Shown here: piece after piece, positions 10,618 through 35,637 of the stretch | Numbering within the stretch: the stretch's first letter is position 1 | Layout: each line of letters opens with the position of its first letter | Virus record (IMG/VR): IMGVR_UViG_3300047380_000522 | Location: 1-48,854 of that record | Source of the DNA: a virus | Direction: 5' to 3' (one strand) | DNA: 48,854 bases | Notes under the pieces: model-generated | What the model was told of the DNA's origin: nothing | The model's input: the letters and a program-made list of their open reading frames with translations, nothing else | Databases searched by the model: none | Made by a program: the position numbers and the translations under genes

Positions 10618-11033
10618 TCTTTTTGATTTTGTGGTTTGTATAATGTTACATTTGGAAACTGCGTCATCACTAATCTTTTAAACAACTTCCAACGCATAGG
10701 GAATGATTCATTAGCTCTGCCTTTTGTTTCTATTATGAAATCTTCACCAATGAAATCAGGCGTGTACTTAATAGGTAGTATGCGCTTGCACCCCCTGTTT
10801 TTGTAATCGCCTTTACCATTAGCTTGCCTTTCGTAAACCTCGTTTTCAAAATGAAAACCAGCAAGTAAAACAAATGTTTCCCCTTCGTACTTAGCTTTGA
10901 TCTTTGCTTTTTTCAAAGCCATATACATATAGCGCTCAAGCCCTGAAGCAAAGTTGATGCCATCATATGACACCTTCTTTGCTTGTACTGGCCCTCGCTT
11001 TTTACTTTTTCTTTTATACGGTTGTCTCCTCAT
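10572..11033 (-). CDS. PD-(D/E)XK nuclease, DUF1064-like
   Basis: 153 residues. It has the restriction-endonuclease-like core: SGLERYMYMALKKAKI (helix with Glu), then KYTPDFIGEDFIIETKGR, giving the D-x(n)-ExK catalytic set (PDF Asp, IETKG Glu and Lys). This architecture matches phage proteins annotated DUF1064 or endodeoxyribonuclease I-like. A role in resolving branched DNA or degrading host DNA is the usual proposal. The N-terminus is a basic stretch (MRRQPYKRKSKKRG). It overlaps its upstream neighbour by 20 bases, and its 5' end lies amid nucleotide-metabolism genes. Confidence 0.75.
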   Translation of the reverse strand: MRRQPYKRKSKKRGPVQAKKVSYDGINFASGLERYMYMALKKAKIKAKYEGETFVLLAGFHFENEVYERQANGKGDYKNRGCKRILPIKYTPDFIGEDFIIETKGRANESFPMRWKLFKRLVMTQFPNVTLYKPQNQKECDETIRLILSKRKG

Positions 11034-11277
11034 GGATCTCTATATTTCTTAGCAAAGCTTCTTGCATCTCTTCTGTACTAGATTCTTTTAATTTTTGCAT
11101 GTATAGCACAGCGTCCATTAGCTCTTCTTGTAAGTGATTAATCCAAGCAAACAAATTTGATTTGTCATCGTTAAGCGTTACGCCGTACTTTGCAAAGCCA
11201 ACGTCTGATCTTGATACAAACTTATCAACAACGCGTTCAACAACTGGGTCTCTAAACTCTATTTGTTTTTTATTCAT
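11014..11277 (-). CDS. Small all-alpha phage protein, MazG-like
   Basis: 87 residues. The pattern SDVGFAKYGVTLNDDKSNLFAWINHLQEELMDAVLYMQKLK resembles the Glu/Asp-rich helical pair (EELMDA) of all-alpha NTP pyrophosphatase-like phage proteins. It overlaps the MazG-fusion gene by ATGA, which strengthens a nucleotide-pool role. The catalytic assignment is by resemblance only. Confidence 0.65.
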   Translation of the reverse strand: MNKKQIEFRDPVVERVVDKFVSRSDVGFAKYGVTLNDDKSNLFAWINHLQEELMDAVLYMQKLKESSTEEMQEALLRNIEIHEETTV

Positions 11278-12047
11278 AATGATTCTGTTTTAACAAATGT
11301 ACCGTTAATCATTTTACCTGTTCTAGCCGCTATTTCTTGATAAGCTGAGTCAATACAGTCTTCAACTTCAAAACCTTCAAGATGCGCTAAGTTGGTAAGA
11401 ACTACAATCATATCGCCAATAGCATCTTTTATTTCAGGTTTATCTTTGGTTAATAAAGCTTTAGCTAGCTCACCCGCTTCTTCCATAAGCTTTACGTATT
11501 GTGTCTTGGCATCGCCGTTGTCATATATACCCCTTACAGCAGCCCAATCGCGTATTAGATCAAATCTAGCGCTGTTTAATGCTGTTGCCTTTGGATTATG
11601 CTTTAGATTAAAAAAGGCCTCATAAAAAGCCTTATTATATATATAGCTTCGATCATCATTAAACATCGAGATTCTTGCGTTCTGCATTATCCAGGGTATA
11701 TGTTCTTTTTCTAATTTAAATTTATACTCTGGCGTTTCCCATTCTAATCCTATGTTGTCCATAAGATTGCCTTTAAGCTTTGTTATAGGTACTGGAAACG
11801 TACTTGTTTGTTCTGTCGGGTTTATTCTCATATTTGATTTAAATAAATTTTTATATAATGTTCTGTCTTTTCTGTAGCCATAAGACTGTTGAAGTTCTAT
11901 CTCTTTGTTAGATATTAAATTAATATCATCACTCGTAAATAAAACTTCGTATTCGCCTGGCGCATAACCTTGCTGCTCCGTAACCCTCTTATTAAGATCA
12001 CGTGTAACTCCGATCTTTTTACCAGGAATATGATAAATGTTATACAT
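11274..12047 (-). CDS. GIY-YIG-like domain fused to MazG-like pyrophosphohydrolase
   Basis: 257 residues in two recognisable parts. Residues 1-70 (YNIYHIPGKKIGVTRDLNKRV, later a NKEIELQQSYGY helix) follow the GIY-YIG nuclease pattern: two beta strands, Arg in the following helix, then a Glu-containing helix. The first strand is degenerate. Residues 165-250 (KLMEEAGELAKALL, then IKDAIGDMIVVLTNLA) are the EExxE and ExxD-like helices of the MazG/all-alpha NTP pyrophosphatase fold. The middle (80-160) is unrecognised. The C-terminal part may hydrolyse (d)NTPs or lower ppGpp; the N-terminal part may bind or cut DNA. It lies between thyA and other nucleotide genes. Confidence 0.75.
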   Translation of the reverse strand: MYNIYHIPGKKIGVTRDLNKRVTEQQGYAPGEYEVLFTSDDINLISNKEIELQQSYGYRKDRTLYKNLFKSNMRINPTEQTSTFPVPITKLKGNLMDNIGLEWETPEYKFKLEKEHIPWIMQNARISMFNDDRSYIYNKAFYEAFFNLKHNPKATALNSARFDLIRDWAAVRGIYDNGDAKTQYVKLMEEAGELAKALLTKDKPEIKDAIGDMIVVLTNLAHLEGFEVEDCIDSAYQEIAARTGKMINGTFVKTESL

Positions 12048-12051
12048 AGTT

Positions 12052-12861
12052 TTAAACAGCTACTGGCGCAGTAATCACTTTGCCTGGCTGATAATTATTT
12101 AAGGTTAATAATCCATTGTGAAAAGCATATGTAGGAGCGCCGTTAAAATCTTCATCTAAGTACTGCTCAACTGCTTCTTGTTGATTCTTATATATGTGAG
12201 CGTCAATAAACTTAACGTTTACACGCTTTGCATTATAACCCGTTTTCTCAGCTATGTATAGCAAAATTTGAGAGTACAAAGCCATATCGTACGGCACACC
12301 AAGAAATATATCTGCGCTTCTTTGCAGAGCAAACATATGCAGGTTGTTCTTCTCAACAAAAAACTGGAAGTACAAATAGCAAGGAGGCAAAGCCATTTCT
12401 TCAAGCTGTGCTGGATTCCATAAACTTACTACATGACGTCTACTGTCAGGCTTCTCGTTTATATTCTTTATTACAGCCTCTAATTGATCATATCCTTGGC
12501 TATTAAAGTTTCTAAGCTGATGACCATAAACAGGACCTAAGTCTCCATTCTCATCTGCCCATTCATTCCATATTTTATTACCAGCTTCCTGTAACGTTTT
12601 AATATTTGTTTCGCCGTTGATAAACCATTTAAACTCTGATTTAAATATATGCGGAAACATTTTGCGCCCGCTTAATATAGGAAAATGCTTAGATATATCA
12701 ATATCAATATCTAAAGAAAATGTAGATGCGCAGCCAACTCCAGTTCTTTCGTTGTCACGTATTACATGATTTTCCATCACGTCTAGTAATAAATCCCTGT
12801 ATTGTAATTCATAATCCGCTTCTGCGTATTTGGGATCGTTATTTATTATTGTATTTCTCAT
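12052..12861 (-). CDS. thyA: Thymidylate synthase, folate-dependent
   Basis: 269 residues, the usual ThyA length. It makes dTMP from dUMP with methylene-tetrahydrofolate. Visible landmarks: the WFINGETN segment (79-86), DLGPVYGHQLRNF (107-119), the phosphate-binding RRHVVSLWNP (141-150), the catalytic cysteine Cys161 in LPPCYLYFQF, the QRSAD segment and DAHIYKNQ near the C-terminus. It supplies dTMP alongside the phage RNR. The start overlaps the end of the 92-residue upstream gene by 23 bases. Confidence 0.95.
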   Translation of the reverse strand: MRNTIINNDPKYAEADYELQYRDLLLDVMENHVIRDNERTGVGCASTFSLDIDIDISKHFPILSGRKMFPHIFKSEFKWFINGETNIKTLQEAGNKIWNEWADENGDLGPVYGHQLRNFNSQGYDQLEAVIKNINEKPDSRRHVVSLWNPAQLEEMALPPCYLYFQFFVEKNNLHMFALQRSADIFLGVPYDMALYSQILLYIAEKTGYNAKRVNVKFIDAHIYKNQQEAVEQYLDEDFNGAPTYAFHNGLLTLNNYQPGKVITAPVAV

Positions 12862-16817: not shown

Positions 16818-17570
16818 TTACAGATAATCAATCACTTGGTTTGCGTCAGTGTTAGCGATAAGTTTATTTATAGCTTCTCTTTTTATCTGTGAAACACGTA
16901 CGTTTGCAGTGTTTACATTTATGTTTAATTTACCCGCTATATAATTAGCAGAGTGCTTATCGCAATCCAAACCATATGATAATCTCAATACTTCATATTC
17001 AATACCTGTTAAGTGTTGTTTCATTAAACTTAACAAATAAGCATTAAGTAAATTAATATTATATGGTTCAGATTCATCTGGTATTTGAAACAATGGATTT
17101 TCTTCATCTGTATTATAATTAGCGTCTATACTGGAAAATATAGAATTAAAAAACATTGTAACAATTTTTTCATCTTTAGGATTCTTACGTATTTCAGTTA
17201 GCTTATGTTCTGGTATACGTATGTCGCCGCGGTTAATATCAATTGCACGTCTTATAGCTCCTTTAATTCTTTTACTAAAGAAACTTTTTAAAGTTTTTTC
17301 AATATCTTCAGAATCAATAAGCTTATCCCATTCTAACTTATCTACCGCAAGAGTTAAACCTTTGCTACCTTCTTGTATTAAATCGTTAATACTTAGTACT
17401 CCGGATGCTTGTTCTGATGTAGCGAACTTGCGCGCTAAATTCTCAACAAGCGGTAAAAATTTTACAATTAACTCGTCTCTTGTATATTCGTCATAAAACT
17501 TACCTTCAGGCATAGACCGTTTAAGATCTTCTTTATACCTTATATAGTTTTGTACATTGTACTTTTTCAT
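16818..17570 (-). CDS. Phage-encoded RNA polymerase sigma factor (sigma-70 family)
   Basis: 250 residues. Region 2 is visible at about 31-115: ELIVKFLPLVENLARKFA, SINDLIQEGSKGLTLAVDKL (the DLIQEG core-binding signature) and SFFSKRIKGAIRRAI. A spacer with RIPEHKL follows, and then region 4 near 185-245: HLTGIEYEVLRLSYGL, ANYIAGKLNINVNTANVRVSQIKREAINKL, an HTH for the -35 element. The factor should redirect host polymerase to phage promoters. It overlaps the upstream HTH gene by ATGA. The repeated 34-bp elements upstream of the small leftward genes, or the dyad elements, are candidate targets (inference). Confidence 0.85.
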   Translation of the reverse strand: MKKYNVQNYIRYKEDLKRSMPEGKFYDEYTRDELIVKFLPLVENLARKFATSEQASGVLSINDLIQEGSKGLTLAVDKLEWDKLIDSEDIEKTLKSFFSKRIKGAIRRAIDINRGDIRIPEHKLTEIRKNPKDEKIVTMFFNSIFSSIDANYNTDEENPLFQIPDESEPYNINLLNAYLLSLMKQHLTGIEYEVLRLSYGLDCDKHSANYIAGKLNINVNTANVRVSQIKREAINKLIANTDANQVIDYL

Positions 17571-18187
17571 AGTTGTTGATTAAGTAATTCTTTTTCTTTT
17601 TTAAGTTCGTTACTCATATTACGATATATAGTTCTTGTTGAACATTTAAGCGCATCAGCAAGTTTTGCAACCGTTATTTTAATTTGACTATCATTTATAA
17701 GTAGCATCGCGTCGTATATTTCATTTTCAGATATTTTAGATCTACCAACTAGCTTACCTACTATAGATAGCTTTTGTCGCATATCTAAACCCGTGAAGTC
17801 TTTAAATATAACTTTACGTAATTTATTAGGCGGAGGTGTATCTAATTCCATTAACGAAACGTCATATATCATGCTTTCCCTGAGTTGATCTGAAACATTG
17901 AATGTTACAAACCCTGTACGCTTATTACAAATGTATTTAACAAGCCCTACAAACGCCTCTTGATCTAATTGCGGATTAAGATACCATAATACATACAAAT
18001 GCCATTTAAGACTCTTATATGTGTTTATTTTAGCCCGCGAGTTAAAGAGTGTATAGCATTGATGTGTACCGTTCTCATAATACCAACCCCAGTCAAACGA
18101 TTCTGTAGGCTCGTCTGTTGTTGGATTTTGCCGGTATATAATACGATGCTGCTCTAGGTATCTGGTATTTCGGTCGTAGTATGACAT
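17567..18187 (-). CDS. HTH-containing regulator or replication protein
   Basis: 206 residues. The C-terminal 45 residues (ISENEIYDAMLLINDSQIKITVAKLADALKCSTRTIYRNMSNELKKEKELL) form a clear helix-turn-helix: KITVAKLADALKCSTRTIYRNM. The N-terminal half is Trp/Tyr-rich (WHLYVLWYLNPQLDQEAFVGLVKYICNKRTGFVTF) with no family recognised; a Rep- or DnaD-like role is possible. It is cotranscribed with the sigma factor. The start codon lies within one of three copies of a repeated dyad element, so its own transcription is probably under special control. Confidence 0.7.
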   Translation of the reverse strand: MSYYDRNTRYLEQHRIIYRQNPTTDEPTESFDWGWYYENGTHQCYTLFNSRAKINTYKSLKWHLYVLWYLNPQLDQEAFVGLVKYICNKRTGFVTFNVSDQLRESMIYDVSLMELDTPPPNKLRKVIFKDFTGLDMRQKLSIVGKLVGRSKISENEIYDAMLLINDSQIKITVAKLADALKCSTRTIYRNMSNELKKEKELLNQQL

Positions 18188-18226
18188 TAGCTTCTTACTA
18201 TTTATTATATATTAGCTATCGTCGCA
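18180..18226 (-). promoter_or_regulatory. Dyad element copy A (box, AT core, inverted box)
   Basis: Read on the minus strand: box TGCGACGATAG, a 25-base core containing TATATAATA and AGTAAGAAG, then CTAATGTCATA, the inverted box. The last box contains the ATG of the HTH gene. Copies B (25278-25324) and C (26620-26665) share the same boxes and nearly the same spacing. It is likely a promoter or operator (inference); transcription initiation here would give an almost leaderless mRNA. Confidence 0.6.
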
Positions 18227-18410
18227 TAAATGTGATTAGCTTGTATCTTTTCTGGTATTTGTGAAACAAATTTATTTTGGTTTCATTAATTTCTAATATA
18301 AGGGCATCATTAAGTATTTCATACTTTAATGTCCATATACTATTTTGAAGATACCTTAGATGTTTTCTTTTTCTTTTGAAATGTTTTAACTTTCTTCGTA
18401 ATGTTCGCAT
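18216..18410 (-). CDS. Small very basic hypothetical protein
   Basis: 64 residues with an Arg/Lys-rich start (MRTLRRKLKHFKRKRKHLRYLQ) and a basic end. It overlaps the 3' end of the neighbouring gene by 25 bases, and its 3' end overlaps dyad element A. Coding is plausible from packing, but AT-rich DNA can give such frames by chance. Confidence 0.4.
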   Translation of the reverse strand: MRTLRRKLKHFKRKRKHLRYLQNSIWTLKYEILNDALILEINETKINLFHKYQKRYKLITFMRR

Positions 18411-19831: not shown

Positions 19832-20112
19832 AATTTACTTAATTTATTTTGTATTTTTTGTATTTTATTATTTACTATTGCAGCTTTTTCATACTGCTCG
19901 TTTTCTTCATAAGCCGTTAATAACGTCATTAGTCTAGCTAATTCAGCTAATAGTAGTTGCTCATCGTCTGGCGCTGCCATATAACCATTGCCAAACATTT
20001 GGTTTACGTCAGTGGTGAACTGCTGATCCCATTCTTTCTGCTTTTCAATTAAGCCGATCATAACGAGGTCAGCAACTCTTACCGCTAACTGTTCAATTTC
20101 ATCTTCAGTCAT
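19828..20112 (-). CDS. Helical hypothetical protein
   Basis: 94 residues, acidic and helical (MTEDEIEQLAVRVADLVMIGLIEKQKEWDQQF; C-terminal ELARLMTLLTAYEENEQYEKAAIVNNKIQKIQNKL, a coiled-coil-like helix). Its stop overlaps the ligase start and its start overlaps the KTSC stop. No family recognised. Confidence 0.7.
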   Translation of the reverse strand: MTEDEIEQLAVRVADLVMIGLIEKQKEWDQQFTTDVNQMFGNGYMAAPDDEQLLLAELARLMTLLTAYEENEQYEKAAIVNNKIQKIQNKLSKL

Positions 20113-20336
20113 TAACCTACTTTATTATATTCCCACTGGCCAATGATGTGGCTGTTAATAAATTTACCTTTAGATTGGGAATTAAATAAACCGTGCCAGT
20201 AAAAAGATGGTACACGCTCATAGTTGTACACACCGCCGTTTTTATAAAATAACCTTAGTCTTTTGGTTACGTTATTGTACTGTGCATCGTGTATGCACTC
20301 AGAGTCTACTAGGACTTTTTCAATTATATTACTCAT
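20112..20336 (-). CDS. KTSC-domain protein
   Basis: 74 residues. The C-terminal part (VTKRLRLFYKNGGVYNYERVPSFYWHGLFNSQSKGKFINSHIIGQWEY) matches the KTSC domain, a short beta/alpha module often found alone in phages or fused to lysyl-tRNA synthetase-type proteins. Function unknown. A 34-bp repeated promoter-like element ends 9 bases upstream of its ATG. Confidence 0.75.
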   Translation of the reverse strand: MSNIIEKVLVDSECIHDAQYNNVTKRLRLFYKNGGVYNYERVPSFYWHGLFNSQSKGKFINSHIIGQWEYNKVG

Positions 20337-20345
20337 TGTTTTTAA

Positions 20346-20379
20346 TTTATTATCGATTATACTTCGTGTTAACTTTGTA
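20346..20379 (-). promoter_or_regulatory. 34-bp repeated promoter-like element, copy 1
   Basis: On the minus strand: TACAAA, 6 bases, ACGA, 7 bases, TCG, then ATAATA. It matches the family consensus at every fixed position except one base in the AT-rich end. It lies 9 bases ahead of the KTSC gene and is the leftmost copy of nine. Promoter function is inferred from position and repetition. Confidence 0.65.
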
Positions 20380-20383
20380 AATT

Positions 20384-20998
20384 TTAATGGAATACTAATC
20401 CCACTTTGTGGTTTTTACTGAACCACTTTGTTGCCATCAGATCAATACTAGAAGCATCCACATAACCGTTAGATACAAGATCGCTATTAGTAGAAAAGAT
20501 TTTTGTGTGTCTATGTTTTCTTTCATTTATCATATGCTTTTGTTTGCCTGAATCACTAAATATTATATCGTAATTACTTGGCAATGAGGTCTTTAACACC
20601 ATATCTATCATATTGGTATAACTGTAAAACCGTACGCTTGGGTTGTGTATAGCAACTTCGATCCACTTTTTTAGATATGCGGGTGAGTAGTAATCTCCGC
20701 TATCATGGACTCTGACGTAATCAGGTTTCTTCTTACGTATTTCAGCGTTCATAGCCTCAACAAAGTTGTCAGTCTTTGTTAGCTGATAACGCTTCTCAAA
20801 CGCCGGTTTTACATTAGACCAGATGTAGGCTCCTTTCTTGGCATAACAAAATTTAACGCATTCGTCAGCCATCGGGCATGTCAACTTACCACTTGCAGAT
20901 TTATATGCAGGTATACCGAAGTTAAACACGCGAAGCCCGAGTTCTTTACTTGTCTTTTTTAATTTACTATTTTGTGTCAGAAGATTCATAGTACTCAA
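20384..20998 (-). CDS. Gp88-like phage protein
   Basis: 204 residues. It has a Cys-rich signature CPMADECVKFCYAKKGAY (residues 41-58) followed by FEKRYQLTKTDNFVEAMNAEI and VRVHDSGDYYSPAYLKKWIEVAIHNPSVRFYSYT. This matches the phage family known as gene product 88. The three clustered cysteines, CxxxxCxxxC, look like metal or iron-sulfur ligands. The reaction is not known. Two in-frame Met codons (residues 1 and 4) lie at the start, and it overlaps the upstream gene by 32 bases. Confidence 0.75.
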   Translation of the reverse strand: MSTMNLLTQNSKLKKTSKELGLRVFNFGIPAYKSASGKLTCPMADECVKFCYAKKGAYIWSNVKPAFEKRYQLTKTDNFVEAMNAEIRKKKPDYVRVHDSGDYYSPAYLKKWIEVAIHNPSVRFYSYTNMIDMVLKTSLPSNYDIIFSDSGKQKHMINERKHRHTKIFSTNSDLVSNGYVDASSIDLMATKWFSKNHKVGLVFH

Positions 20999-21176
20999 TT
21001 ATTTTTTCAATATCGTCTTCCATGTTTATAATGTCCTGCGCATATTCTAGCACATCTTTAAATCCAGATAGTTCATAACTACTGAATTCATACACATCGC
21101 GCTCTTCGATCGCGTAGATGCAGTCTCTCATATCTTTTGCCGTATTTTCAAAGCGGCAATAACTCATATTTGGCAT
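20967..21176 (-). CDS. Conserved small phage protein (MSYCRFENT family)
   Basis: 69 residues. The N-terminal MSYCRFENTAKDMRDCIYAIEE pattern recurs in many phages; the rest is acidic and helical. Its start is MPNMSYCRF or MSYCRF, three codons apart. No function is known. Confidence 0.75.
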   Translation of the reverse strand: MPNMSYCRFENTAKDMRDCIYAIEERDVYEFSSYELSGFKDVLEYAQDIINMEDDIEKIIEYYESSDTK

Positions 21177-21186
21177 AATTTTAGTA

Positions 21187-21459
21187 TTAGTCTAGCAATA
21201 CCATATAGGCTTCAATATTGTTTTTTTGAAACCAACGTAGTGCTTTGTGAAATTCATTTATTTGTTTACTTGTTACGGTCTTTGGTGCAACTTCCATTAC
21301 ATACTGGCTGCCCATAATAAAATCGTACATTGATAGCTCAACACCGTTTAGATCGTATGTTTCGCCGCTGAACGGATTTGTTACTGTTTCACCATTTTCG
21401 TATATCATACCAGTAAACCATTTAGGCACCGACTGTTTCGTCTTCTCTTTCGTACTCAT
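21187..21459 (-). CDS. Conserved small phage protein
   Basis: 90 residues starting MSTKEKTKQSVPKWFTGMIYENGETVTNPFSGETYDLNGVELSMYDFIMG. An alternative ATG four codons upstream (21471) exists. VPKWF.G..Y..GE.VTNPFSGE.Y.LN..ELSMYDFIMG is a pattern remembered from marine and cyanophage hypotheticals. It overlaps the gene upstream. No function known. Confidence 0.7.
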   Translation of the reverse strand: MSTKEKTKQSVPKWFTGMIYENGETVTNPFSGETYDLNGVELSMYDFIMGSQYVMEVAPKTVTSKQINEFHKALRWFQKNNIEAYMVLLD

Positions 21460-21883
21460 AACCTTCTTCAATTAGTTCGTTTTCAATTTCTTTTTTCTTA
21501 TCATTGTAATAGTCATCGTATACTTCTTCAACAACTTCTTGAAAAGCATAGTCTTCATCATCAAGCTGGTCGTAGTATATGCTAGCGCCATCAATCATAG
21601 CGTCAGGCATTTTTTCTAGCCAGTCGTTATCGTAATAGTATACGTCTTCATTAACATTAGGGTTGCGATCGTTATCGGTTGCAATCCATACTTCATAGCC
21701 ATCAGCAGTTGTTTCAGTATAAAACATCATGTCAGGTTGGTTTGGCCAGTCGCTAGTTATCTTAAAATCAAAGTGATTAGCTATAGTTTTAAGCATATAG
21801 TCATGGTCTAGGTCTTCTCTCTCAAGCACGTTGATTTTACGCAGTCTTGTTTCGATCAATTCGTCGGTTAGTATTTTACTCAT
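21422..21883 (-). CDS. Acidic hypothetical protein
   Basis: 153 residues, strongly acidic and Tyr-rich, especially at 90-150 (YYYDNDWLEKMPDAMIDGASIYYDQLDDEDYAF, then EVYDDYYNDKKKEIENELIEEGYEYERED). The high negative charge might mimic DNA, as in anti-restriction proteins. That is only a resemblance. It overlaps both neighbours. Confidence 0.65.
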   Translation of the reverse strand: MSKILTDELIETRLRKINVLEREDLDHDYMLKTIANHFDFKITSDWPNQPDMMFYTETTADGYEVWIATDNDRNPNVNEDVYYYDNDWLEKMPDAMIDGASIYYDQLDDEDYAFQEVVEEVYDDYYNDKKKEIENELIEEGYEYEREDETVGA

Positions 21884-22127
21884 AGTCTTTAGATATTAAA
21901 ATGTTATCGCCGTATTTAAAATCCCACGCTGAAACTCTAAGTAGTTCAATGTTAGAAAATGTATATAACGAGCTAACGTCGCTAATTTTTAAGTCACTAT
22001 AAAATGTAGTGCTTGAAAGCGCTTCGACTATAGAGTCAACACTTGCTTGATATTTGTCGTTTTCAGAGGAATGTAATGCCTCTTTGATTTCAGGCTTTAG
22101 CCTTTCATAAATGGTAAGTCTACTCAT
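21876..22127 (-). CDS. Hypothetical protein
   Basis: 83 residues (MSRLTIYERLKPEIKEALHSSENDKYQASVDSIVEALSSTTFY...), a mixed helical protein. It is the first gene behind promoter-like copy 2, which lies 16 bases upstream and inside the 3' end of the previous gene. No family recognised. Confidence 0.65.
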   Translation of the reverse strand: MSRLTIYERLKPEIKEALHSSENDKYQASVDSIVEALSSTTFYSDLKISDVSSLYTFSNIELLRVSAWDFKYGDNILISKDYE

Positions 22128-22142
22128 ATTTGTTTTAATTTA

Positions 22143-22349
22143 TTATATTATCGATTCTTGTTCGTATTCAATTTGTAAATTTTCTAACGCTATTTTATAA
22201 CCGAAGTTAATTGCCATTTGCATTAGTATTAAAGAGCCTTGACCGCATCCATCAGCAAAGTTCTCTAGTTGTTCTCTGTTTTCCGGCGTTGCTACAATAC
22301 CTCGATCGAGCTTCGCCATTTCTGTTTTTATGTATTTATTTATTTCCAT
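22143..22349 (-). CDS. Hypothetical protein following the tRNA-like element
   Basis: 68 residues, starting MEINKYIKTEMAKLDRG. A longer frame upstream is rejected because it would translate the tRNA-like element. The ATG lies only two bases after the tRNA-like 3' end, so processing there would leave an almost leaderless message. The last codons (LQIEYEQESII) double as promoter-like copy 2 for the next gene. No family recognised. Confidence 0.65.
   Translation of the reverse strand: MEINKYIKTEMAKLDRGIVATPENREQLENFADGCGQGSLILMQMAINFGYKIALENLQIEYEQESII
22144..22177 (-). promoter_or_regulatory. 34-bp repeated promoter-like element, copy 2
   Basis: It matches the full consensus (minus strand TACAAA-N6-ACGA-N7-TCGATAATATA). 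It is embedded in the 3' coding end of the 68-residue gene, 16 bases upstream of the next ATG. Confidence 0.65.
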
Positions 22350-22351
22350 AG

Positions 22352-22426
22352 TGGACGTGGCAGGAATCGAACCTGCGTTTGGCACCTTTGCTTTCGCCGC
22401 GGTTGCCGCCTAACCATTTCACGCCC
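22352..22426 (-). tRNA. tRNA-like element without a usable anticodon loop
   Basis: 75 bases. The T arm is perfect: GCAGG, loop TTCGATT, CCTGC. The acceptor strands GGGCGTG and CACGTCC pair in 7 of 7 positions (one G-U), with discriminator A. The D-arm region contains GGTTAGGCGG. However, the stretch where the anticodon arm should be (27 bases between GGTT and GGTGCC) contains no T. The universal U33 is therefore absent, and no 5-bp stem with a 7-base loop forms. By position, GCA would be the nominal anticodon (Cys). It may be a decayed tRNA or a tRNA-like structure serving in RNA processing. No CCA is encoded. Confidence 0.55.
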
Positions 22427-22705
22427 AATTTGAGAGGTGGACGGGACTGGAATGTTAGGAATGCACGTCATTTACTAGTATGCCCTGACTTATATCCTTT
22501 TATCTGTTTTATCCCGTCTTTCGCCTGCATACGTATCTCATCTCCGAGTTCCTATATGCGACAGCTTCCAACCTTAAACCTCTCTATAGTGTGTCAAACA
22601 TCCTTTCTGCTGCTTGCCGATTAGCAAGTTTCAACTATTCGTCATAGTCTTAGTGGGAAACACACTTTATTTTGTAGTTAATAGTGTACTTTCGAACTTT
22701 GTTAA
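22427..22705. other. Gene-free stretch, possibly structured RNA
   Basis: No credible coding frame. On the minus strand it holds a hairpin CTTGC-TAATCG-GCAAG (22613-22628 area) and two complementary 7-mers, GACGGGA (22512-22518) and TCCCGTC (22440-22446), 65 bases apart. The second is followed by CCACC, like the end of the adjacent tRNA-like element. The GTGGACG word (plus strand) recurs at 22351 and 22437. This could be a degenerate second tRNA-like unit or part of one longer RNA; nothing firmer can be said. Confidence 0.4.
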
Positions 22706-22894
22706 CTACTTACGTCGCCAAGAGCGATGCACCGATGCACTTACCTCTTGACTGACAATTTGTATTGTATTGCCCGTTTTATGCTCAATGATTGGGACAT
22801 ACGAGTATGTTTTAGTTGTTGAGCACTTCACACACGTGTTATATCCTAAATCTAAACGGACGGGGTGTACTTTATTTCCACATCTACAATACAT
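22706..22894 (-). CDS. Zinc-ribbon small protein
   Basis: 62 residues. It begins MYCRCGNKVHPVRLDLGYNTCVKCSTTKTYSYVP: Cys3-x-Cys5 and Cys21-x-x-Cys24 give a zinc-ribbon pattern of the type seen in small phage and ribosomal-like zinc proteins. The C-terminus is basic (SVHRSWRRK). Promoter-like copy 3 lies 25 bases upstream. Confidence 0.7.
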   Translation of the reverse strand: MYCRCGNKVHPVRLDLGYNTCVKCSTTKTYSYVPIIEHKTGNTIQIVSQEVSASVHRSWRRK

Positions 22895-22919
22895 AGTTTA
22901 ATTTTTTATTTGTTACATT

Positions 22920-22953
22920 TATATTATCGATTTGCGTTCGTATTACATTTGTA
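22920..22953 (-). promoter_or_regulatory. 34-bp repeated promoter-like element, copy 3
   Basis: Full consensus match. It lies 25 bases upstream of the zinc-ribbon gene and three bases after the stop of the 43-residue gene. Confidence 0.65.
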
Positions 22954-22956
22954 AAT

Positions 22957-23088
22957 TTAATACATATCCGCCTGCCACTGAGGTATACCGGCGTTGTATC
23001 TCTCCCAATACTGACGCTCGATCGCCTCTATTTGCACTCTTGTGAGTGGTTTGTGGCTAAACTTTCGTTGTTTTCTTTGTTTCTTCAT
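22957..23088 (-). CDS. Small basic hypothetical protein
   Basis: 43 residues: MKKQRKQRKFSHKPLTRVQI, then EAIERQYWERYNAGIPQWQADMY. The basic head and helical body look protein-like. It overlaps the upstream gene by 32 bases and stops next to promoter-like copy 3. No family recognised. Confidence 0.55.
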   Translation of the reverse strand: MKKQRKQRKFSHKPLTRVQIEAIERQYWERYNAGIPQWQADMY

Positions 23089-23254
23089 ACATTTTAGCTA
23101 TTGCGAGGTGCATGACGTGGCTGTGTATAGCATTAAAGTCATCACCGTCTTGTTCAAAATCCGATAGTTGCCAATCGACACTATCATACATTAGTTCCAT
23201 TGTGACGTCAGCGACACCTTGTGCGATTTCGTCAAGTTCTTTCATTTTACTCAT
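23057..23254 (-). CDS. Acidic helical hypothetical protein
   Basis: 65 residues (MSKMKELDEIAQGVADVTMELMYDSVDWQLSDFEQDGDDFNAIHSHVMHLAIAKMYEETKK). Acidic, mostly helical. It overlaps its neighbours on both sides. No family recognised. Confidence 0.6.
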   Translation of the reverse strand: MSKMKELDEIAQGVADVTMELMYDSVDWQLSDFEQDGDDFNAIHSHVMHLAIAKMYEETKKTTKV

Positions 23255-23363
23255 AGATATATTCTTCCATTGCGTTAATAAAATCGTTTTTGTCGATTAT
23301 TTTAGAGTCATAGCAGTTTAAATTGTATATAAACGCTTCGTATAATTCTTTATTAGTTGCCAT
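23247..23363 (-). CDS. Small hypothetical protein
   Basis: 38 residues: MATNKELYEAFIYNLNCYDS, then KIIDKNDFINAMEEYIYE. Its stop overlaps the ATG of the next gene, and its start overlaps the previous gene by 11 bases, which supports it despite its length. Function unknown. Confidence 0.5.
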   Translation of the reverse strand: MATNKELYEAFIYNLNCYDSKIIDKNDFINAMEEYIYE

Positions 23364-23616
23364 ATTCTACACTGCATTCGTTAGTATTCATCCACTCTAC
23401 ATTCGATAGTTTATGACCCGCGCCAATTATAAAGGACTCAAGGTCGTTTACGCCGCTTGGCACTTTGTACGAATATACTTTGCTATCGTTAAAGTCTAGC
23501 ACCCAAATATAGTCTTTAGGTTGACTTTCGTTTAACTCTTTGTTATATTGTTCGGCATTTTTAGCAAGTTTTTTTTCTTCTTCCATTTCGTGCCATTTAG
23601 TTATTGTATCACTCAT
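23353..23616 (-). CDS. Hypothetical protein
   Basis: 87 residues. A charged helical N-terminus (MSDTITKWHEMEEEKKLAKNAEQYNKEL) precedes a beta-type C-terminal half (YIWVLDFNDSKVYSYKVPSGVNDLESFIIGAGHKLSNVEWM). The second half reads like a compact single domain. No family recognised. Confidence 0.65.
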   Translation of the reverse strand: MSDTITKWHEMEEEKKLAKNAEQYNKELNESQPKDYIWVLDFNDSKVYSYKVPSGVNDLESFIIGAGHKLSNVEWMNTNECSVEYGN

Positions 23617-23618
23617 AA

Positions 23619-23909
23619 TTAGTCTCCTGTATAATCGCCGGGTTTTTTACTTGCGTAATACTCTGCACATCCGGCATCGTGCAGTCTACGCTGTTCTACA
23701 TATTTGTCGTGATTGTCGATCAATTCGTCAATACGAGCTTTCATTTCGTTTTCCGTTTGGGCGGGCAGATAGCTAACGTGATAAGGCGCGAAGTTAAAGT
23801 GTTCGCAACCATAACCGCTAGCTTGCTTGCCGTTCCAAGTCGTCCACTCTTTGTAGTGGTACTGGATGCCCCTATGCAAAAGCATCCCAAAATCCTTTCT
23901 TTTCTTCAA
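23619..23909 (-). CDS. Hypothetical protein
   Basis: 96 residues from the first ATG; a start at MLLHRGIQY (23885) would reduce overlap with the previous gene. The body (YHYKEWTTWNGKQASGYGCEHFNFAPYHVSYLPAQTENEMKARIDELIDNHDKY) has an aromatic-rich first half and a helical second half. No family recognised. Confidence 0.6.
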   Translation of the reverse strand: MKKRKDFGMLLHRGIQYHYKEWTTWNGKQASGYGCEHFNFAPYHVSYLPAQTENEMKARIDELIDNHDKYVEQRRLHDAGCAEYYASKKPGDYTGD

Positions 23910-24078
23910 GGTATGTTAGACCTTTGTAGTTAAACCATTGGTAAGTACCGTCTTTGTCTTTGTCTTCATCGTATTTGAAGCCGAATGAAGGAGGCAAATT
24001 GCCGACAGTGTAAGGTTTGTAAGTAACTCCGTTGAGTTTAATTTTTTTGTTTGTGGTAAATTTAATTGTATTTTGCAT
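23872..24078 (-). CDS. Hypothetical protein
   Basis: 68 residues, beta-rich and charged (MQNTIKFTTNKKIKLNGVTYKPYTVGNLPPSFGFKYDEDKDKDGTYQWFNYKGLTYLEEKKGFWDAF). It is the first gene behind promoter-like copy 4, 26 bases upstream. No family recognised. Confidence 0.65.
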   Translation of the reverse strand: MQNTIKFTTNKKIKLNGVTYKPYTVGNLPPSFGFKYDEDKDKDGTYQWFNYKGLTYLEEKKGFWDAFA

Positions 24079-24104
24079 AGTAAATTATTTAGTTTTTATT
24101 CAAT

Positions 24105-24138
24105 TATATTATCGATTTGTGTTCGTGTTTAGTTTGTA
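24105..24138 (-). promoter_or_regulatory. 34-bp repeated promoter-like element, copy 4
   Basis: Full consensus match. It lies 26 bases ahead of the 68-residue gene and overlaps the stop codon of the gene upstream (24129). Confidence 0.65.
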
Positions 24139-24380
24139 AAAGTGCCATCGTGGTACATAGTGTGTATTTTATTTGAATGAACATACTGATTCCACAGTTT
24201 AGTATGTGAATGAGTTCTACCTTTATTACCAGCACCTTTACCTTTAACGTGCCAACGGTTATACTCTTTGGTTGTTAAACCACTACAATAGTCACCTTTT
24301 GTTACTTCAAGTCGGTGTTTGCGATTTCTTTCGAGTCTTGAGTTTTTAACGTACTCACACGCTTCTTTCATTGTCATCAT
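24129..24380 (-). CDS. Basic His-rich hypothetical protein
   Basis: 83 residues, basic (MMTMKEACEYVKNSRLERNRKHRLEVTKGDYCSGLTTKEYNRWHVKGKGAGNKGRTHSHTKLWNQYVHSNKIHTMYHDG). Many His and Arg residues and a Gly/Lys loop suggest nucleic-acid binding. It overlaps the upstream gene by ATGA. Confidence 0.6.
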   Translation of the reverse strand: MMTMKEACEYVKNSRLERNRKHRLEVTKGDYCSGLTTKEYNRWHVKGKGAGNKGRTHSHTKLWNQYVHSNKIHTMYHDGTFTN

Positions 24381-24664
24381 TGTACATTTCGTTTTACCCA
24401 GTTAATAATATATTCAAGTCGATCGAGTTCGTTAGGTATTAGTACTCGTTTGTAGTTGTAAATAGTGGTATCTAAGTAGCCCCTACCGTGGTATACACCC
24501 GTCCAATACTCGTCTTTAATTTTTACCATTTTGTTTATTTGGTATAACCTGTCGAGTCGGTTGCTATCAATTCTTATATAACCTGATTGATAGGATTTTA
24601 TTTTACGTCCGTCGTTTAGCAGGAACGTGGTAGTTCCGTTATTATTTATTTCTATTAGTTTCAT
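24377..24664 (-). CDS. Hypothetical protein
   Basis: 95 residues (MKLIEINNNGTTTFLLNDGRKIKSYQSGYIRIDSNRLDRLYQINKMVK...IINWVKRNVQ). The first 35 residues read as beta strands around a NDGRKIKSYQSGYIRI motif. Promoter-like copy 5 lies only five bases ahead of the ATG. Confidence 0.65.
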   Translation of the reverse strand: MKLIEINNNGTTTFLLNDGRKIKSYQSGYIRIDSNRLDRLYQINKMVKIKDEYWTGVYHGRGYLDTTIYNYKRVLIPNELDRLEYIINWVKRNVQ

Positions 24665-24669
24665 ACTTA

Positions 24670-24703
24670 TATATTATCGTTAGGTAATCGTATTAGTTTT
24701 GTA
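24670..24703 (-). promoter_or_regulatory. 34-bp repeated promoter-like element, copy 5
   Basis: It matches all fixed positions, with T instead of A after the first CG. It is five bases ahead of the next ATG and overlaps the stop of the 56-residue gene, so the transcript would have little or no leader. Confidence 0.6.
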
Positions 24704-24863
24704 TTTTGTTTATTAAATCGTTCGCCAACATTTCATATGTTTCGCCATCTTCTAGGTCACATTCGTATTTAACGAAGTTCCATAGTTCTCGGTAGTTACT
24801 TTCGTCTTTAGAGTATAATTCCTTGAAGTACTCTATAGTATCGTCATTCCAGTGAAATTCCAT
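24693..24863 (-). CDS. Small acidic hypothetical protein
   Basis: 56 residues (MEFHWNDDTIEYFKELYSKD, ESNYRELWNFVKYECDLEDG, ETYEMLANDLINKIQN), acidic, helical, with Trp and Tyr well spread. It is separated by one base from the next gene upstream. No family recognised. Confidence 0.6.
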   Translation of the reverse strand: MEFHWNDDTIEYFKELYSKDESNYRELWNFVKYECDLEDGETYEMLANDLINKIQN

Positions 24864-24864
24864 A

Positions 24865-24999
24865 TTATTTAAATTTAGCCGCTACTTCGTAGATTTCTGA
24901 TTTGTCTTCGCTATCTAAACCTTCAGTTTGATTAGCGTACATTCTTAATACATAGTGTACAAAGGTACAATCGTTTTCAGTGAGTTTAATATTTCTCAT
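24865..24999 (-). CDS. Small hypothetical protein
   Basis: 44 residues, MRNIKLTENDCTFVHYVLRM then YANQTEGLDSEDKSEIYEVAAKFK. The start resembles the 46-residue protein at 25998-26138 (M-x-x-I-x-L-T-x-x-D), so the two may be diverged paralogues. It overlaps the upstream gene by ATGA. Confidence 0.55.
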   Translation of the reverse strand: MRNIKLTENDCTFVHYVLRMYANQTEGLDSEDKSEIYEVAAKFK

Positions 25000-25130
25000 T
25001 TGTTAGTGGTTTTATAGTAGTTAATTCTTTCTAGTATTTCTTGTCTTTCTATAAGACCCTCCATTTGCTGTAAAACATCGGTAGACATATCTATTTGTTT
25101 TCCGTTTTCACAAGTAAGTATAAATTGCAT
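24996..25130 (-). CDS. Small hypothetical protein
   Basis: 44 residues, MQFILTCENGKQIDMSTDVL then QQMEGLIERQEILERINYYKTTNK: a short beta hairpin followed by a long helix. It is the first gene behind promoter-like copy 6, 23 bases upstream. Confidence 0.55.
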   Translation of the reverse strand: MQFILTCENGKQIDMSTDVLQQMEGLIERQEILERINYYKTTNK

Positions 25131-25153
25131 AGTAGTTATATTTTTTATTCATA

Positions 25154-25187
25154 TATATTATCGAATATACTTCGTATTTAGTTTGTA
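25154..25187 (-). promoter_or_regulatory. 34-bp repeated promoter-like element, copy 6
   Basis: Full consensus match, including a CGAA/TTCG inverted pair in its centre. It lies 23 bases ahead of the 44-residue gene. Confidence 0.65.
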
Positions 25188-25189
25188 AA

Positions 25190-25451
25190 AAAGTATACAC
25201 TTTGTTTGTTAGTTAAAATAGTTTATGTGGTATTACACTCTACCTCTAAGTACCTAGAAAATTATTTACCCAAATAGTGTGACAATAGGGTGTTAAGTAT
25301 ATATAATAAGAAGCTATCGTCGCATACCGATCGATTGAATAAGTTATAGGTGGTTGCTATACACATCAGTTACGATGCATACCTGCGATCTGTTCAACGT
25401 TATTTATACTGGTGATGCACACATCTCAACGCGCCAGTCCCGTTAGGGTTT
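25190..25451. ncRNA. Gene-free stretch with a rightward promoter-like dyad; possible small RNA
   Basis: About 260 bases with no supported frame on either strand. It contains dyad element B (25278-25324), which has GTGACA and TATAAT separated by 17 bases on the plus strand. No plus-strand gene follows; instead a perfect 9-bp hairpin lies at 25452-25480. Transcription from B would thus give an RNA of about 150-170 bases that ends against the leftward gene. This is inference from promoter and hairpin placement. Confidence 0.4.
25278..25324 (+). promoter_or_regulatory. Dyad element copy B
   Basis: Left box TGTGACAATAG, 25-base AT-rich core containing TATATAATA, right box CTATCGTCGCA (9 of 11 complementary to the left box). 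GTGACA (25279-25284) and TATAAT (25302-25307) have the sigma-70 spacing of 17. AGCTATCGTCGCATA is repeated exactly at 18214-18228. Confidence 0.6.
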
Positions 25452-25480
25452 GAACTAGATTACTTTACTTCATCTAGTTC
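25452..25480. terminator. Perfect hairpin at the end of a leftward gene
   Basis: GAACTAGAT (25452-25460) and ATCTAGTTC (25472-25480) form a perfect 9-bp stem with an 11-base loop that contains the stop codon of the 104-residue gene. No U-run follows on either strand, so termination may be inefficient or factor-assisted. Confidence 0.5.
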
Positions 25481-25774
25481 AATTCTTTCGATTACATTAG
25501 TTCGAACATTCGAAGGCATATCGGTAGATTGAGACCAATAACCTCTTTTAATCCAACAAGGCATAATGTTTAGTTTAGGTAACATTACTTTAAGAACCTC
25601 ATCGTGGTTGTATGTAATCTTTTGATTTTTGTTATTTACAAAGGTAATGATTTGATTACGTCCATACCAAGATTTACGGACTACGAAGTTTTTACGTTCG
25701 ATTGGTGGGAAGATTTCATTTAGTTCTTCTTTAGATAGTTTTGAAATTACTTCGTTTAATTTAGAATTTGACAT
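25460..25774 (-). CDS. Hypothetical protein
   Basis: 104 residues. A helical N-terminus (MSNSKLNEVISKLSKEELNEIFPPIE) leads into a basic beta-rich part (NFVVRKSWYGRNQIITFVNNKNQKITYNHDEVLKVMLPKLN). It has its own promoter-like element (copy 7, 32 bases upstream) and a hairpin at its 3' end, so it seems to be a single-gene transcript. No family recognised. Confidence 0.65.
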   Translation of the reverse strand: MSNSKLNEVISKLSKEELNEIFPPIERKNFVVRKSWYGRNQIITFVNNKNQKITYNHDEVLKVMLPKLNIMPCWIKRGYWSQSTDMPSNVRTNVIERIELDEVK

Positions 25775-25806
25775 ATTTATTATTTTAATTATTATTTATT
25801 TACATT

Positions 25807-25840
25807 TATATTATCGAATACCGTTCGTATTCAGTTTGTA
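25807..25840 (-). promoter_or_regulatory. 34-bp repeated promoter-like element, copy 7
   Basis: Full consensus match with a CGAA/TTCG inverted pair. It lies 32 bases ahead of the 104-residue gene and 7 bases after the stop of the small membrane protein gene. Confidence 0.65.
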
Positions 25841-25847
25841 TTTTTTA

Positions 25848-25982
25848 TTAGACTCTGAATGAAGGATCAGTTATCAGTTGGAAGATCGAGAACAGGATCC
25901 CGGTTACGGCCAGAGTTGTTAGTCCAGTTATTACTGTGTACGTTACAACTATTAGTACTTTGTGTGTGAATTTACGTTTCAT
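25848..25982 (-). CDS. Small membrane protein
   Basis: 44 residues. A basic N-terminus MKRKFTHK is followed by a long hydrophobic stretch (VLIVVTYTVITGLTTLAVTG, then ILFSIF), which makes one transmembrane helix with the N-terminus inside. An early phage membrane peptide of this type may alter host envelope functions; no specific role can be assigned. Confidence 0.6.
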   Translation of the reverse strand: MKRKFTHKVLIVVTYTVITGLTTLAVTGILFSIFQLITDPSFRV

Positions 25983-25997
25983 AGTATGTTTTGTTAG

Positions 25998-26138
25998 TTA
26001 TTGTATTTTGTTATTAGTTTCAAGTATAGAATCAATTTCAGTTTGAGTTAAGTTAAGTGCTTTTTCATTTTCAAGATAGTAGAAGAAAGCTTTAGTAATA
26101 TTAGTGTAGTCAGATTGTGTTAAAGTAATTGATTTCAT
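25998..26138 (-). CDS. Small hypothetical protein
   Basis: 46 residues: MKSITLTQSDYTNITKAFFY then YLENEKALNLTQTEIDSILETNNKIQ. It is similar at its start to the 44-residue protein at 24865-24999. Promoter-like copy 8 lies 17 bases ahead of it. Confidence 0.55.
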   Translation of the reverse strand: MKSITLTQSDYTNITKAFFYYLENEKALNLTQTEIDSILETNNKIQ

Positions 26139-26155
26139 ATTATTTGTTTTACATT

Positions 26156-26189
26156 TATATTATCGTTTACGTTTCGTGTTAGCTTTGTA
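26156..26189 (-). promoter_or_regulatory. 34-bp repeated promoter-like element, copy 8
   Basis: Consensus match with T after the first CG. It lies 17 bases ahead of the 46-residue gene and overlaps the stop codon of the 51-residue gene. Confidence 0.65.
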
Positions 26190-26334
26190 GGATTGAGATC
26201 CCGATAACCTTGCTAGAGATCTCGTTGCTGTAGCATTTGCTCAGGTAGTTATCCAGATGCTGCTGCCCAGTGAAGTGTTTAACCGTGCTGTTGTAATTGC
26301 CTAACCAGTTCTTTGTATCTATTCTTACTAACAT
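26179..26334 (-). CDS. Small hypothetical protein, first leftward gene
   Basis: 51 residues: MLVRIDTKNWLGNYNSTVKH, FTGQQHLDNYLSKCYSNEIS, SKVIGISILQS. It is the leftward gene nearest the divergence point and lies behind promoter-like copy 9, so it is probably among the first expressed. No family recognised. Confidence 0.55.
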   Translation of the reverse strand: MLVRIDTKNWLGNYNSTVKHFTGQQHLDNYLSKCYSNEISSKVIGISILQS

Positions 26335-26355
26335 ATCTTTGTTTCTTTATTCATA

Positions 26356-26389
26356 TATATTATCGTATACTATTCGTACTAGGTATGTA
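26356..26389 (-). promoter_or_regulatory. 34-bp repeated promoter-like element, copy 9
   Basis: The most divergent copy (TATGTA for TTTGTA and ACT for ATT), but with identical spacing. It lies 21 bases ahead of the first leftward gene and next to the ATCCTG repeat cluster. Confidence 0.6.
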
Positions 26390-26403: not shown

Positions 26404-26508
26404 ATCCTGTATCCTGATCCTGGGAAAGCGTAAATCCTGGCCGAGATCCTGCGAGCTGTGCCTGCTGGGACCTGGCAGCTGATCCTGGGAACGTGATCCT
26501 GAATCCTG
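26404..26508. repeat. ATCCTG repeat cluster at the divergence point; candidate origin or regulatory region
   Basis: Eight copies of ATCCTG in 105 bases, all in one orientation, starting at 26404, 26411, 26417, 26434, 26446, 26482, 26496 and 26503, with extra CCTG words between. The block is clearly richer in G and C than its flanks and lies in a 366-base gene-free gap between the leftward and rightward arms. Iterated one-way words between divergent arms suggest protein-binding iterons at a replication origin or a recombination signal. No coding frame is credible here. Confidence 0.55.
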
Positions 26509-26619
26509 GAAACGATACGGGGGCTGGCAAAAAGAAACGGGTTTTACTTATGCCGGTGTAACGTGTATATATAGTAGCAACCCATTACTTCCCTATATCT
26601 AACTATTTTTTAAATATAA

Positions 26620-26665
26620 TGTGACACTAGGTAGTTATATATAATAGTAGTAGGCAACTGTCGCA
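26620..26665 (+). promoter_or_regulatory. Dyad element copy C, ahead of the rightward arm
   Basis: TGTGACACTAG, a 24-base core with TATATAATA, then CAACTGTCGCA. It ends 35 bases before the first rightward gene. GTGACA and TATAAT are only 13 bases apart here, so if this is a promoter the -35 call is uncertain; the dyad itself is conserved with copies A and B. Confidence 0.6.
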
Positions 26666-26700
26666 TTAAGTACTCCGAAAACAGCGTAATCATACACAGT

Positions 26701-34083: not shown

Positions 34084-35637
34084 ATGGAATTTAATAACCC
34101 TAGTGAGATAGTTAAAACTCTCACATTTGGCAATGATGCCAAACAACAAATTATGCAAGGCGTTGAAAAATTGTCAAACGCAGTAAAGAGCACATTAGGT
34201 GCGTCTGGAAAATGCGTTATATATGAGGACGCCCTTGGAAAACCGGTGATTACAAAAGATGGTGTAACCGTTGCGGAAAGCGTAGTCTTATTACATCCGG
34301 TTGAGAATATTGGCGCTACACTTATAAAGGAAGCGGCAAGCAATACAGTAAAAGAAGCCGGGGACGGTACAACAACATCAACCGTCCTTGCGCATTCTTT
34401 ATTAAAAACAGTTAACAAGCATTTAAATGAGGAAGAAGTTAGAGAGCTTAAAAGCGGCATTATTAGTGGTGCTGAAAAAGTTATGGTTTATCTTGACAAA
34501 GCCAGTACTGAAGTTAAAGGTGAAATGCTTAACCAAGTTGCTGGTATTTCATGCAACAACGACGCAGAGCTTGGAGATAAAATTGGACAAGCTTATGAAA
34601 AAGTTGGAAAAAATGGAGTCGTTCTAATGGAAGAGTCTGATACAAACGAAACTTATGTTGAGTTTGTTGACGGCGTGCAATTTGACAGCGGTTTAAAATC
34701 CTCGCATTTATCTACGGATAAAAATAAAGGTACAGCTACATTAGAAGACCCATATGTTCTTATAGTATCTTCACCGATACCTAATATAAGAAGAATACAA
34801 AACGTATTAGAGTTTGTAATTAAAAATAAAAAGAGCCTGCTAATAGTAGCGGATATGGATCAACAGCCGTATCAAACATTATTAGCTAATAAAGTAAAAG
34901 GTAATATAAAAGTAAATATAGTTGATTTACCTGGCTTTGGTCCAACTAAGCAGCAAACGCTTGAAGACTTAGCAATACTCACTGGCGCTCAAATCATAAA
35001 CGAAGAGTTAGGAGACGATTTAGACTTCATAGAGCCTAATGTATTAGGAAAAGCTTTTAAGGCTGTTACGGACGATAAAAACACTGTTCTGCAAGTAGCT
35101 GAAGCAAATGAAGAAGTAGCTCTACGAATAATGGATGTTGAAAAGCAAATAGCTGAAGAAACCAATCCGTTCTTTAAGAAAAAATTAGAGCAACGATTAT
35201 CAATGCTAACTGGTCAAGTCGGTATAATTTATGTCGGGGCTGACTCTAAGGTTGAGCTTAAAGAAAAGAAAGATCGTATTGAAGATGCGATATATGCGAC
35301 AAAAGCCGCTTATAAAGAAGGTATAGTTCCAGGCGGAGGTGTAGCTTTGCTGAATGCTTCTACACTGATTAAGCCGAAAAATAAAGGTGAGGAGATATTG
35401 CTTGCTGCAATAAGATCACCATATGAGACTATATTAGAAAACGCTAATATGCAAGTAGTTTATCCTCAAATCAAAAACAGAGGTATAGACGTTAAAACAG
35501 GTAAAGATGTTAATATGGTTAAAGCCGGCATTATAGATCCGGTGTTAGTTACCAAAACAGCTTTAAAGAATGCGGTAAGTGTTGTTACAACTATTATATC
35601 TGCAGATTGTGTAATCAGTAATAAACGATTAGCATGA
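34084..35637 (+). CDS. groL: Phage-encoded GroEL chaperonin
   Basis: 517 residues (E. coli GroEL 548). ATPase motifs are intact: TKDGVTVAE (58-66), GDGTTT (93-98), the catalytic Asp401 in KDRIEDAIYATKAA and PGGGVALL (416-423). The apical domain is recognisable (FVDGVQFDSG, LPGFGPTKQQTLEDLAILTG). The intermediate hinge and C-terminal equatorial segment (GIIDPVLVTKTALKNAVSVVTTIISADCVISN) are present. It lacks the flexible Gly-Gly-Met tail of cellular GroEL, and the C-terminal equatorial loop is shorter. Substrates are likely phage proteins such as capsid or fibres (inference). It is coupled by ATGA to a GroES-like gene. Confidence 0.93.
   Translation: MEFNNPSEIVKTLTFGNDAKQQIMQGVEKLSNAVKSTLGASGKCVIYEDALGKPVITKDGVTVAESVVLLHPVENIGATLIKEAASNTVKEAGDGTTTSTVLAHSLLKTVNKHLNEEEVRELKSGIISGAEKVMVYLDKASTEVKGEMLNQVAGISCNNDAELGDKIGQAYEKVGKNGVVLMEESDTNETYVEFVDGVQFDSGLKSSHLSTDKNKGTATLEDPYVLIVSSPIPNIRRIQNVLEFVIKNKKSLLIVADMDQQPYQTLLANKVKGNIKVNIVDLPGFGPTKQQTLEDLAILTGAQIINEELGDDLDFIEPNVLGKAFKAVTDDKNTVLQVAEANEEVALRIMDVEKQIAEETNPFFKKKLEQRLSMLTGQVGIIYVGADSKVELKEKKDRIEDAIYATKAAYKEGIVPGGGVALLNASTLIKPKNKGEEILLAAIRSPYETILENANMQVVYPQIKNRGIDVKTGKDVNMVKAGIIDPVLVTKTALKNAVSVVTTIISADCVISNKRLA

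Follow-up and report, generated by a model that had tools for sequence, protein, structure and literature searches.

IMG/VR virus record IMGVR_UViG_3300047380_000522, a stretch of 48,854 bases analysed at its full length (hereafter the window), carries nine copies of a rigidly spaced DNA element ahead of small leftward genes. These elements are probably phage-specific promoters, read by the host core RNA polymerase together with a sigma factor that the phage encodes at 16818–17570. A sequence-only reading of the window had already suggested a phage-specific promoter class, and this interpretation is the best supported after our analysis, based on element orientation, nearness to start codons, -35/-10-like geometry, a purine at the predicted transcription start (+1), a subset predicted to be leaderless, joint occurrence of element and sigma gene, and phage-specific box variants. 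The element, its orientation, geometry, and conservation, and its co-occurrence with the sigma gene, can be read directly from the DNA. The nine copies are listed with the open reading frame (ORF) that each precedes, the matrix score, the gap to the ATG, and the predicted leader in nucleotides (nt).

20346–20379, minus strand: element copy 1; ATG 20336, ORF 20112–20336; one mismatch; 40.8 bits; gap 9, predicted leader 6 nt
22144–22177, minus strand: element copy 2; ATG 22127, ORF 21876–22127; 42.4 bits; gap 16, predicted leader 13 nt
22920–22953, minus strand: element copy 3; ATG 22894, ORF 22706–22894; 49.6 bits; gap 25, predicted leader 22 nt
24105–24138, minus strand: element copy 4; ATG 24078, ORF 23872–24078; 55.4 bits; gap 26, predicted leader 23 nt
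24670–24703, minus strand: element copy 5; ATG 24664, ORF 24377–24664; 42.7 bits; gap 5, predicted leader 2 nt
25154–25187, minus strand: element copy 6; ATG 25130, ORF 24996–25130; 50.3 bits; gap 23, predicted leader 20 nt
25807–25840, minus strand: element copy 7; ATG 25774, ORF 25460–25774; 51.5 bits; gap 32, predicted leader 29 nt
26156–26189, minus strand: element copy 8; ATG 26138, ORF 25998–26138; 45.8 bits; gap 17, predicted leader 14 nt
26356–26389, minus strand: element copy 9; ATG 26334, ORF 26179–26334; one mismatch; 39.5 bits; gap 21, predicted leader 18 nt

The copies lie where the sequence-only reading had placed them. Seven carry its pattern exactly and two (20346 and 26356) differ by one mismatch, whereas shuffled sequences gave an expectation of 0.00–0.01. 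All are directed leftward, 5–32 bases from an ATG, and the overlap with the end of the previous gene that had been described was seen in four copies (22144, 24105, 24670, and 26156); copy 2 overlaps the stop of the preceding ORF, copy 4 the end of ORF 24129–24380, and copy 8 the end of ORF 26179–26334. The leftward series starts at copy 9. A search matrix of 44 columns, made from 179 IMG/VR copies in other phages, recovered the same nine sites at 39.5–55.4 bits and no further site above 0 bits in the window, in keeping with the earlier claim that the element occurs nowhere else in it; the maximum in 20 simulated windows was 6.8 bits. Chance can be dismissed, with zero copies expected, and so can a repeat spread through recent copying, as the rigid boxes stand amid variable bases and hundreds of diverged copies occur in other phages.

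Across IMG/VR, relatives of the element showed the same placement and a more extended consensus. On the gene strand the consensus is TTTACAAA-N3-AAYACGAA-N5-wwwCGATAATATA-wwTGwA, with a full conserved stretch of TTTACAAAcTtAAYACGAAN5wwwCGATAATATAwwTGwA. The rigid spacing proposed for a 34-bp element with free intervening bases held, but the conserved stretch is longer than 34 bp and some of the supposedly free columns (A10, A11, Y12, and W22–W24) are under constraint. The scan found at least 118 stretches with the element, many holding several copies on one strand, and approximately 650 non-redundant copies ahead of start codons among the matches listed. We note that IMG/VR contigs are mainly fragments and that copy counts cover the matches listed and loci picked by sigma similarity, not a census. 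Among the 650 copies, 525 were intergenic, 112 overlapped an ORF end, and 13 fell inside an ORF, compared with 36% of random positions. In 80 sigma-bearing IMG/VR loci, the sigma strand contained 285 cases of the exact 19-bp spacing from ACAAA to GATAATA and the opposite strand one; a second spacing peak, at 15, was due to ACAAACAAA, whose repeat period is 4. The closest relative, a 63,552-base record with a 99% identical sigma factor, had nine copies, all on the same strand. In the literature collection available to us, our search found no description of this motif, nor of a Bacteroidetes phage sigma promoter.

The geometry of the element suggests a promoter with a defined start site. We set GATAAT (columns 26–31) on the TATAAT box, at -12 to -7. 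Given GATAAT as the -10 box, TACAAA occupies -37 to -32, ACGA occupies -25 to -22, and column 38 becomes +1. Column 38 was a purine in 639 of the 650 listed copies (98%), with G in 387, A in 197, and the first base of an ATG in a further 55; it was T or C in 11. Start codons of ORFs of at least 40 amino acids also peaked at this column, with 53 ATG starts compared with 2 at column 37 and 2 at column 39, while the remaining start codons clustered 10–11 and approximately 20 bases past it. The 53 column-38 starts encode 49 different N-terminal octapeptides, so they do not represent one gene family. A start codon at +1 would produce a leaderless messenger RNA. The purine at column 38 and the ATG peak are two independent observations that support the predicted geometry.

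These observations also bear on two other functions that the element could have. It could be an operator for a phage repressor or activator, with a separate nearby promoter active, and dispersed multi-copy repressor sites do exist in phages, such as the stoperators of mycobacteriophage L5. However, the starts agree with a +1 at a fixed column, and start codons 0–30 nt behind the element leave hardly any room for a downstream promoter. Because the element is asymmetric and its orientation to the gene is fixed (285 to 1), we regard a repressor operator as quite improbable, and less likely than a promoter. Alternatively, its position directly before start codons could reflect a leader or translation signal that works in RNA. 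This seems highly improbable: four tested copies folded no better than shuffled sequences (z 0.34 to -1.27), the distance from element to ATG ranges from 0 to more than 40 nt, and the leader would consist entirely of the element where the ATG is at column 38.

Two neighbouring genes are candidates for the protein that reads the elements, the second encoding a helix-turn-helix (HTH) protein.

16818–17570, minus strand: phage sigma-70-family factor, 250 amino acids, containing regions 2 and 4; the protein proposed to read the elements
17567–18187, minus strand: 206-amino-acid protein with a C-terminal HTH, directly upstream of the sigma gene and overlapping it; alternative or partner DNA binder

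The window sigma factor matches phrog_351 (E 5e-21), and the Pfam models for region 2 and region 4 were found in 36 and 33, respectively, of 38 relatives (E up to 0.1). Structure comparison matched it to sigma factors in the PDB (Foldseek probability 1.0), with primary sigmas as the best hits, and the alignment to FliA (1rp3) spans nearly its full length. In sigma-bearing IMG/VR loci, matrix hits above 20 bits were confined to the sigma strand, and almost all of them lay upstream of the sigma gene. Elements were present in most sigma loci with enough upstream DNA, loci L181 and L201 being among the few with variant forms only or none. In L139, L142, L143, and L145, the sigma gene is itself preceded by an element at a distance of approximately 39 bases. 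The sigma gene was present in 27 of 40 element-bearing records of at least 41 kb, two of them with interrupted reading frames (L014 and L122, records G053 and G079) that may reflect decay or assembly errors. Twelve of the 13 sigma-less records end within 1.8 kb of the last element, and the thirteenth ends 5.8 kb past it and may break off before the sigma gene; the distance from last element to sigma gene has a median of 2.8 kb (n=54) and a maximum of 7.7 kb.

Both element and sigma gene were absent from four relatives that share the terminase, namely the cultured phages Cellulophaga phi40:1, Flavobacterium elemoA, and Tenacibaculum Gundel_1 and the metagenome-assembled Manatee Spring genome MW202828. 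The INPHARED collection contained no close sigma relative, its lone hit being a 5.9-kb faecal contig with 26% identity. The terminase relatives are phages of Flavobacteriia, and the host is probably a member of the Bacteroidota. We also looked for the host through genome collections, where seven short contigs assigned to bins of unrelated bacteria carried the sigma gene; these name no host because they are most likely mis-binned phage. The multi-subunit RNA polymerase beta family had no match in eight related records, although a control search detected the family in known genomes, so use of the host core enzyme is likely. A search for single-subunit RNA polymerases gave no match, and neither did its control.

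We compared the element with known classes of bacterial promoter. The sequence-only reading had found no fit to E. coli spacing, and this needs qualifying: a -35/-10 layout does exist on the gene strand, where TACAAA and GATAAT are separated by 19 bp and ACGA forms an additional box between them. E. coli sigma-70 promoters combine TTGACA, a spacer of 16–18 bp, and TATAAT, and the 19-bp TACAAA–GATAAT spacer places the element outside that class; a sigma-70 consensus scan of the region showed no excess (47 vs 43.9). Bacteroidota primary-sigma promoters have TTG at -33 and TAnnTTTG at -7. The host polymerase is probably held in common with these promoters, but neither canonical box is in the element: the column frequencies contain no TTG, and many copies lack TG at columns 37–38. 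FliA/sigma-28 promoters (TAAAGTTT-N11-GCCGATAA, with a TAAA -35 and a sigma factor of approximately 240 amino acids) come closer, sharing CGATAA in the -10 region, CAAA/TAAA in the -35 region, and a sigma factor of similar size that aligns nearly end to end. The element differs in having TACAAA as its -35, a spacer 1 bp longer, ACGA as a third box within that spacer, and a -10 extended to GATAATATA. We do not file the class under sigma-28, since CGATAA is alike but the spacing differs, and membership of the protein in the sigma-28 group is not established, as its best PDB hits are primary sigmas.

Phage sigma factors with promoter classes of their own are already known, notably phiEco32 gp36 and phage 7-11 gp47. 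The 7-11 sigma factor SaPh711_gp47 reads late promoters of the form GTAAtg-(16)-aCTA, and phiEco32 gp36, which has no region 4, reads middle and late promoters with the single box tAATGTAtA (PMC8948821). Similar to the system predicted here, gp47 is a sigma-70-family protein with region 4 that is paired with a bipartite phage-specific promoter in several dispersed copies per genome, and it redirects the host core RNA polymerase (PMC8948821), the role that we propose for the window sigma factor. In contrast with the 7-11 late promoters, the predicted promoters in the window combine TACAAA, ACGA, and CGATAATA and stand before small genes of an early-type region. The likeness to phiEco32 is that of a phage sigma factor with its own promoter class, but the window elements have a -35-like box and the window sigma factor has region 4. 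The predicted class thus differs from known phage sigma promoters in its consensus, the third box in its spacer, and its predicted leaderless transcripts.

The versions of the boxes varied among phages. Comparing exact-spacing patterns (iterative motif refinement per genome drifted in some genomes and was dropped), we found that box versions were largely constant within a phage and differed between phages, as CGATAATA, GGATAATA, AGATAATA, or TGATAATA, with TGCAAA in place of TACAAA, or with ACGA changed to ACAA or lost. All copies found in L145 and L153 carry TGCAAA or a TGCAGA-like form where TACAAA would stand, showing a -35 box that has changed within the family. Constancy within a phage together with differences between phages is the trace that would be expected of a changing cognate DNA-binding protein. 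Mapped onto gene trees, the ACG-box trait required 5 changes for sigma, 6 for HTH, and 8–10 for Erf, MazG, primase, and exonuclease, a comparison that appears to favour sigma or HTH over the other neighbouring genes.

The HTH protein is the main rival as reader. Under this explanation, which we consider unlikely, the elements would be promoters for the host primary sigma or for the host holoenzyme with the HTH protein as an activator binding ACGA or TACAAA. The HTH gene adjoins the sigma gene, is kept in 34 of 34 full-length loci, and fits the ACG-box trait almost as well as sigma; in addition, columns 31–38 (TATAwwTG) faintly resemble the Bacteroidota -7 box. Its HTH_11 match is weak (E 1e-4) and below the cut-off. 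However, there is no TTG at -33, copies ending in GATAATATAATAAA wholly lack the TTTG part, and the elements do not show the two-fold symmetry that HTH sites usually have. A more natural site for this protein overlies its own start codon, where we observed another repeated element; it is an imperfect inverted repeat consisting of TGYGACRATAGS, approximately 24 AT-rich bases, and the reverse complement. Copies lie at 18178–18230, approximately 25276–25330, and approximately 26612–26667, and the copy over the HTH start codon is retained in many relatives (L135–L140, L145, L161, and L203). This repeat is possibly an operator of the HTH protein or an early control site.

Several observations weigh against assigning the elements to the phage sigma factor. 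The Erf annealing protein and MazG, as well as the HTH protein, are each kept in all 34 full-length sigma loci, so co-occurrence alone cannot single out sigma. The base before GATAATA tracks sigma no better than it tracks other genes. Sigma residues 109 and 152 had high mutual information with box variants, but with just 2–6 independent contrasts we did not use them as evidence. ACGA, within the spacer, is an unusual sigma contact. Finally, phage 7-11 shows that sequence-based promoter prediction can fail: the promoters mapped in 2022 (PMC8948821) differ from the motifs that had been predicted in 2015 (PMC4331800).

With these points considered, we still favour reading by the phage sigma factor; promoter activity, the start at column 38, and the identity of the reader are what we infer. 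The host sigma would first direct synthesis of the HTH–sigma operon, so that sigma is initially made from another promoter, and the phage sigma factor would then bring the host core enzyme to the nine elements. Region 4 would bind TACAAA (-37 to -32) and region 2 would bind CGATAATATA (around -13 to -4), while the 19-bp spacer would be contacted by the polymerase–sigma complex at the ACGA box (-25 to -22). Transcription would begin at column 38, with G or A, and run leftward into the small genes at 26.4–19.8 kb, with read-through probably continuing via replication and nucleotide genes to 7.3 kb. Leaders of 2–29 nt are predicted in the window phage and many leaderless messages in its relatives. 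The element ahead of the sigma gene in several relatives could provide positive feedback. Early or middle expression is the best reading of the timing of this class. The leftward genes at 7320–12861 encode ribonucleotide reductase large and small subunits, a MazG-like pyrophosphatase, and thymidylate synthase, and read-through from the same promoters probably reaches them.

A more specific version of this scheme is conceivable but doubtful. In it, a three-box promoter (TACAAA as -35, ACGA at -25 to -22, and CGATAATATA as -10) would be read jointly by the phage sigma factor and the adjacent HTH protein and would control a largely short-leader or leaderless regulon. The ACGA spacer box would be dispensable in some clades, resulting in a natural series of sigma–promoter pairs with jointly changed specificity.

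We also noted other features in the window. On the minus strand at 22349–22426, a sequence resembles the transfer RNA-like domain of transfer-messenger RNA (tmRNA), with an Rfam tmRNA score of 36.9 bits (E 2e-13) that is below the gathering score and no call by ARAGORN at these positions. It has approximately 25 bases in place of the approximately 320-base middle and a G3–U70 pair in the acceptor; the T-arm and acceptor (GGTTCGATTCCTGCCACGTCCAC) are kept in many related phages, and the middle is very variable. On the plus strand at 26404–26508, just beyond copy 9, ATCCTG occurs eight times in approximately 105 bases that are locally richer in G+C. A phage-encoded GroEL-like chaperonin lies at 34084–35637 and is also found in phi40:1 and elemoA.

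Together, these results offer a concrete, testable scheme of transcription in a large group of short-tailed phages that are uncultured and probably infect Bacteroidota. Both the signal and the sigma gene occur in dozens of uncultured phages, and the pair was absent from every cultured relative that we checked. A single matrix search makes the predicted early genes findable, with start sites predicted to the base. Dozens of sigma–promoter pairs with differing boxes may be useful for understanding how sigma factors read DNA, and the leaderless subset would add a test case for leader-free translation.

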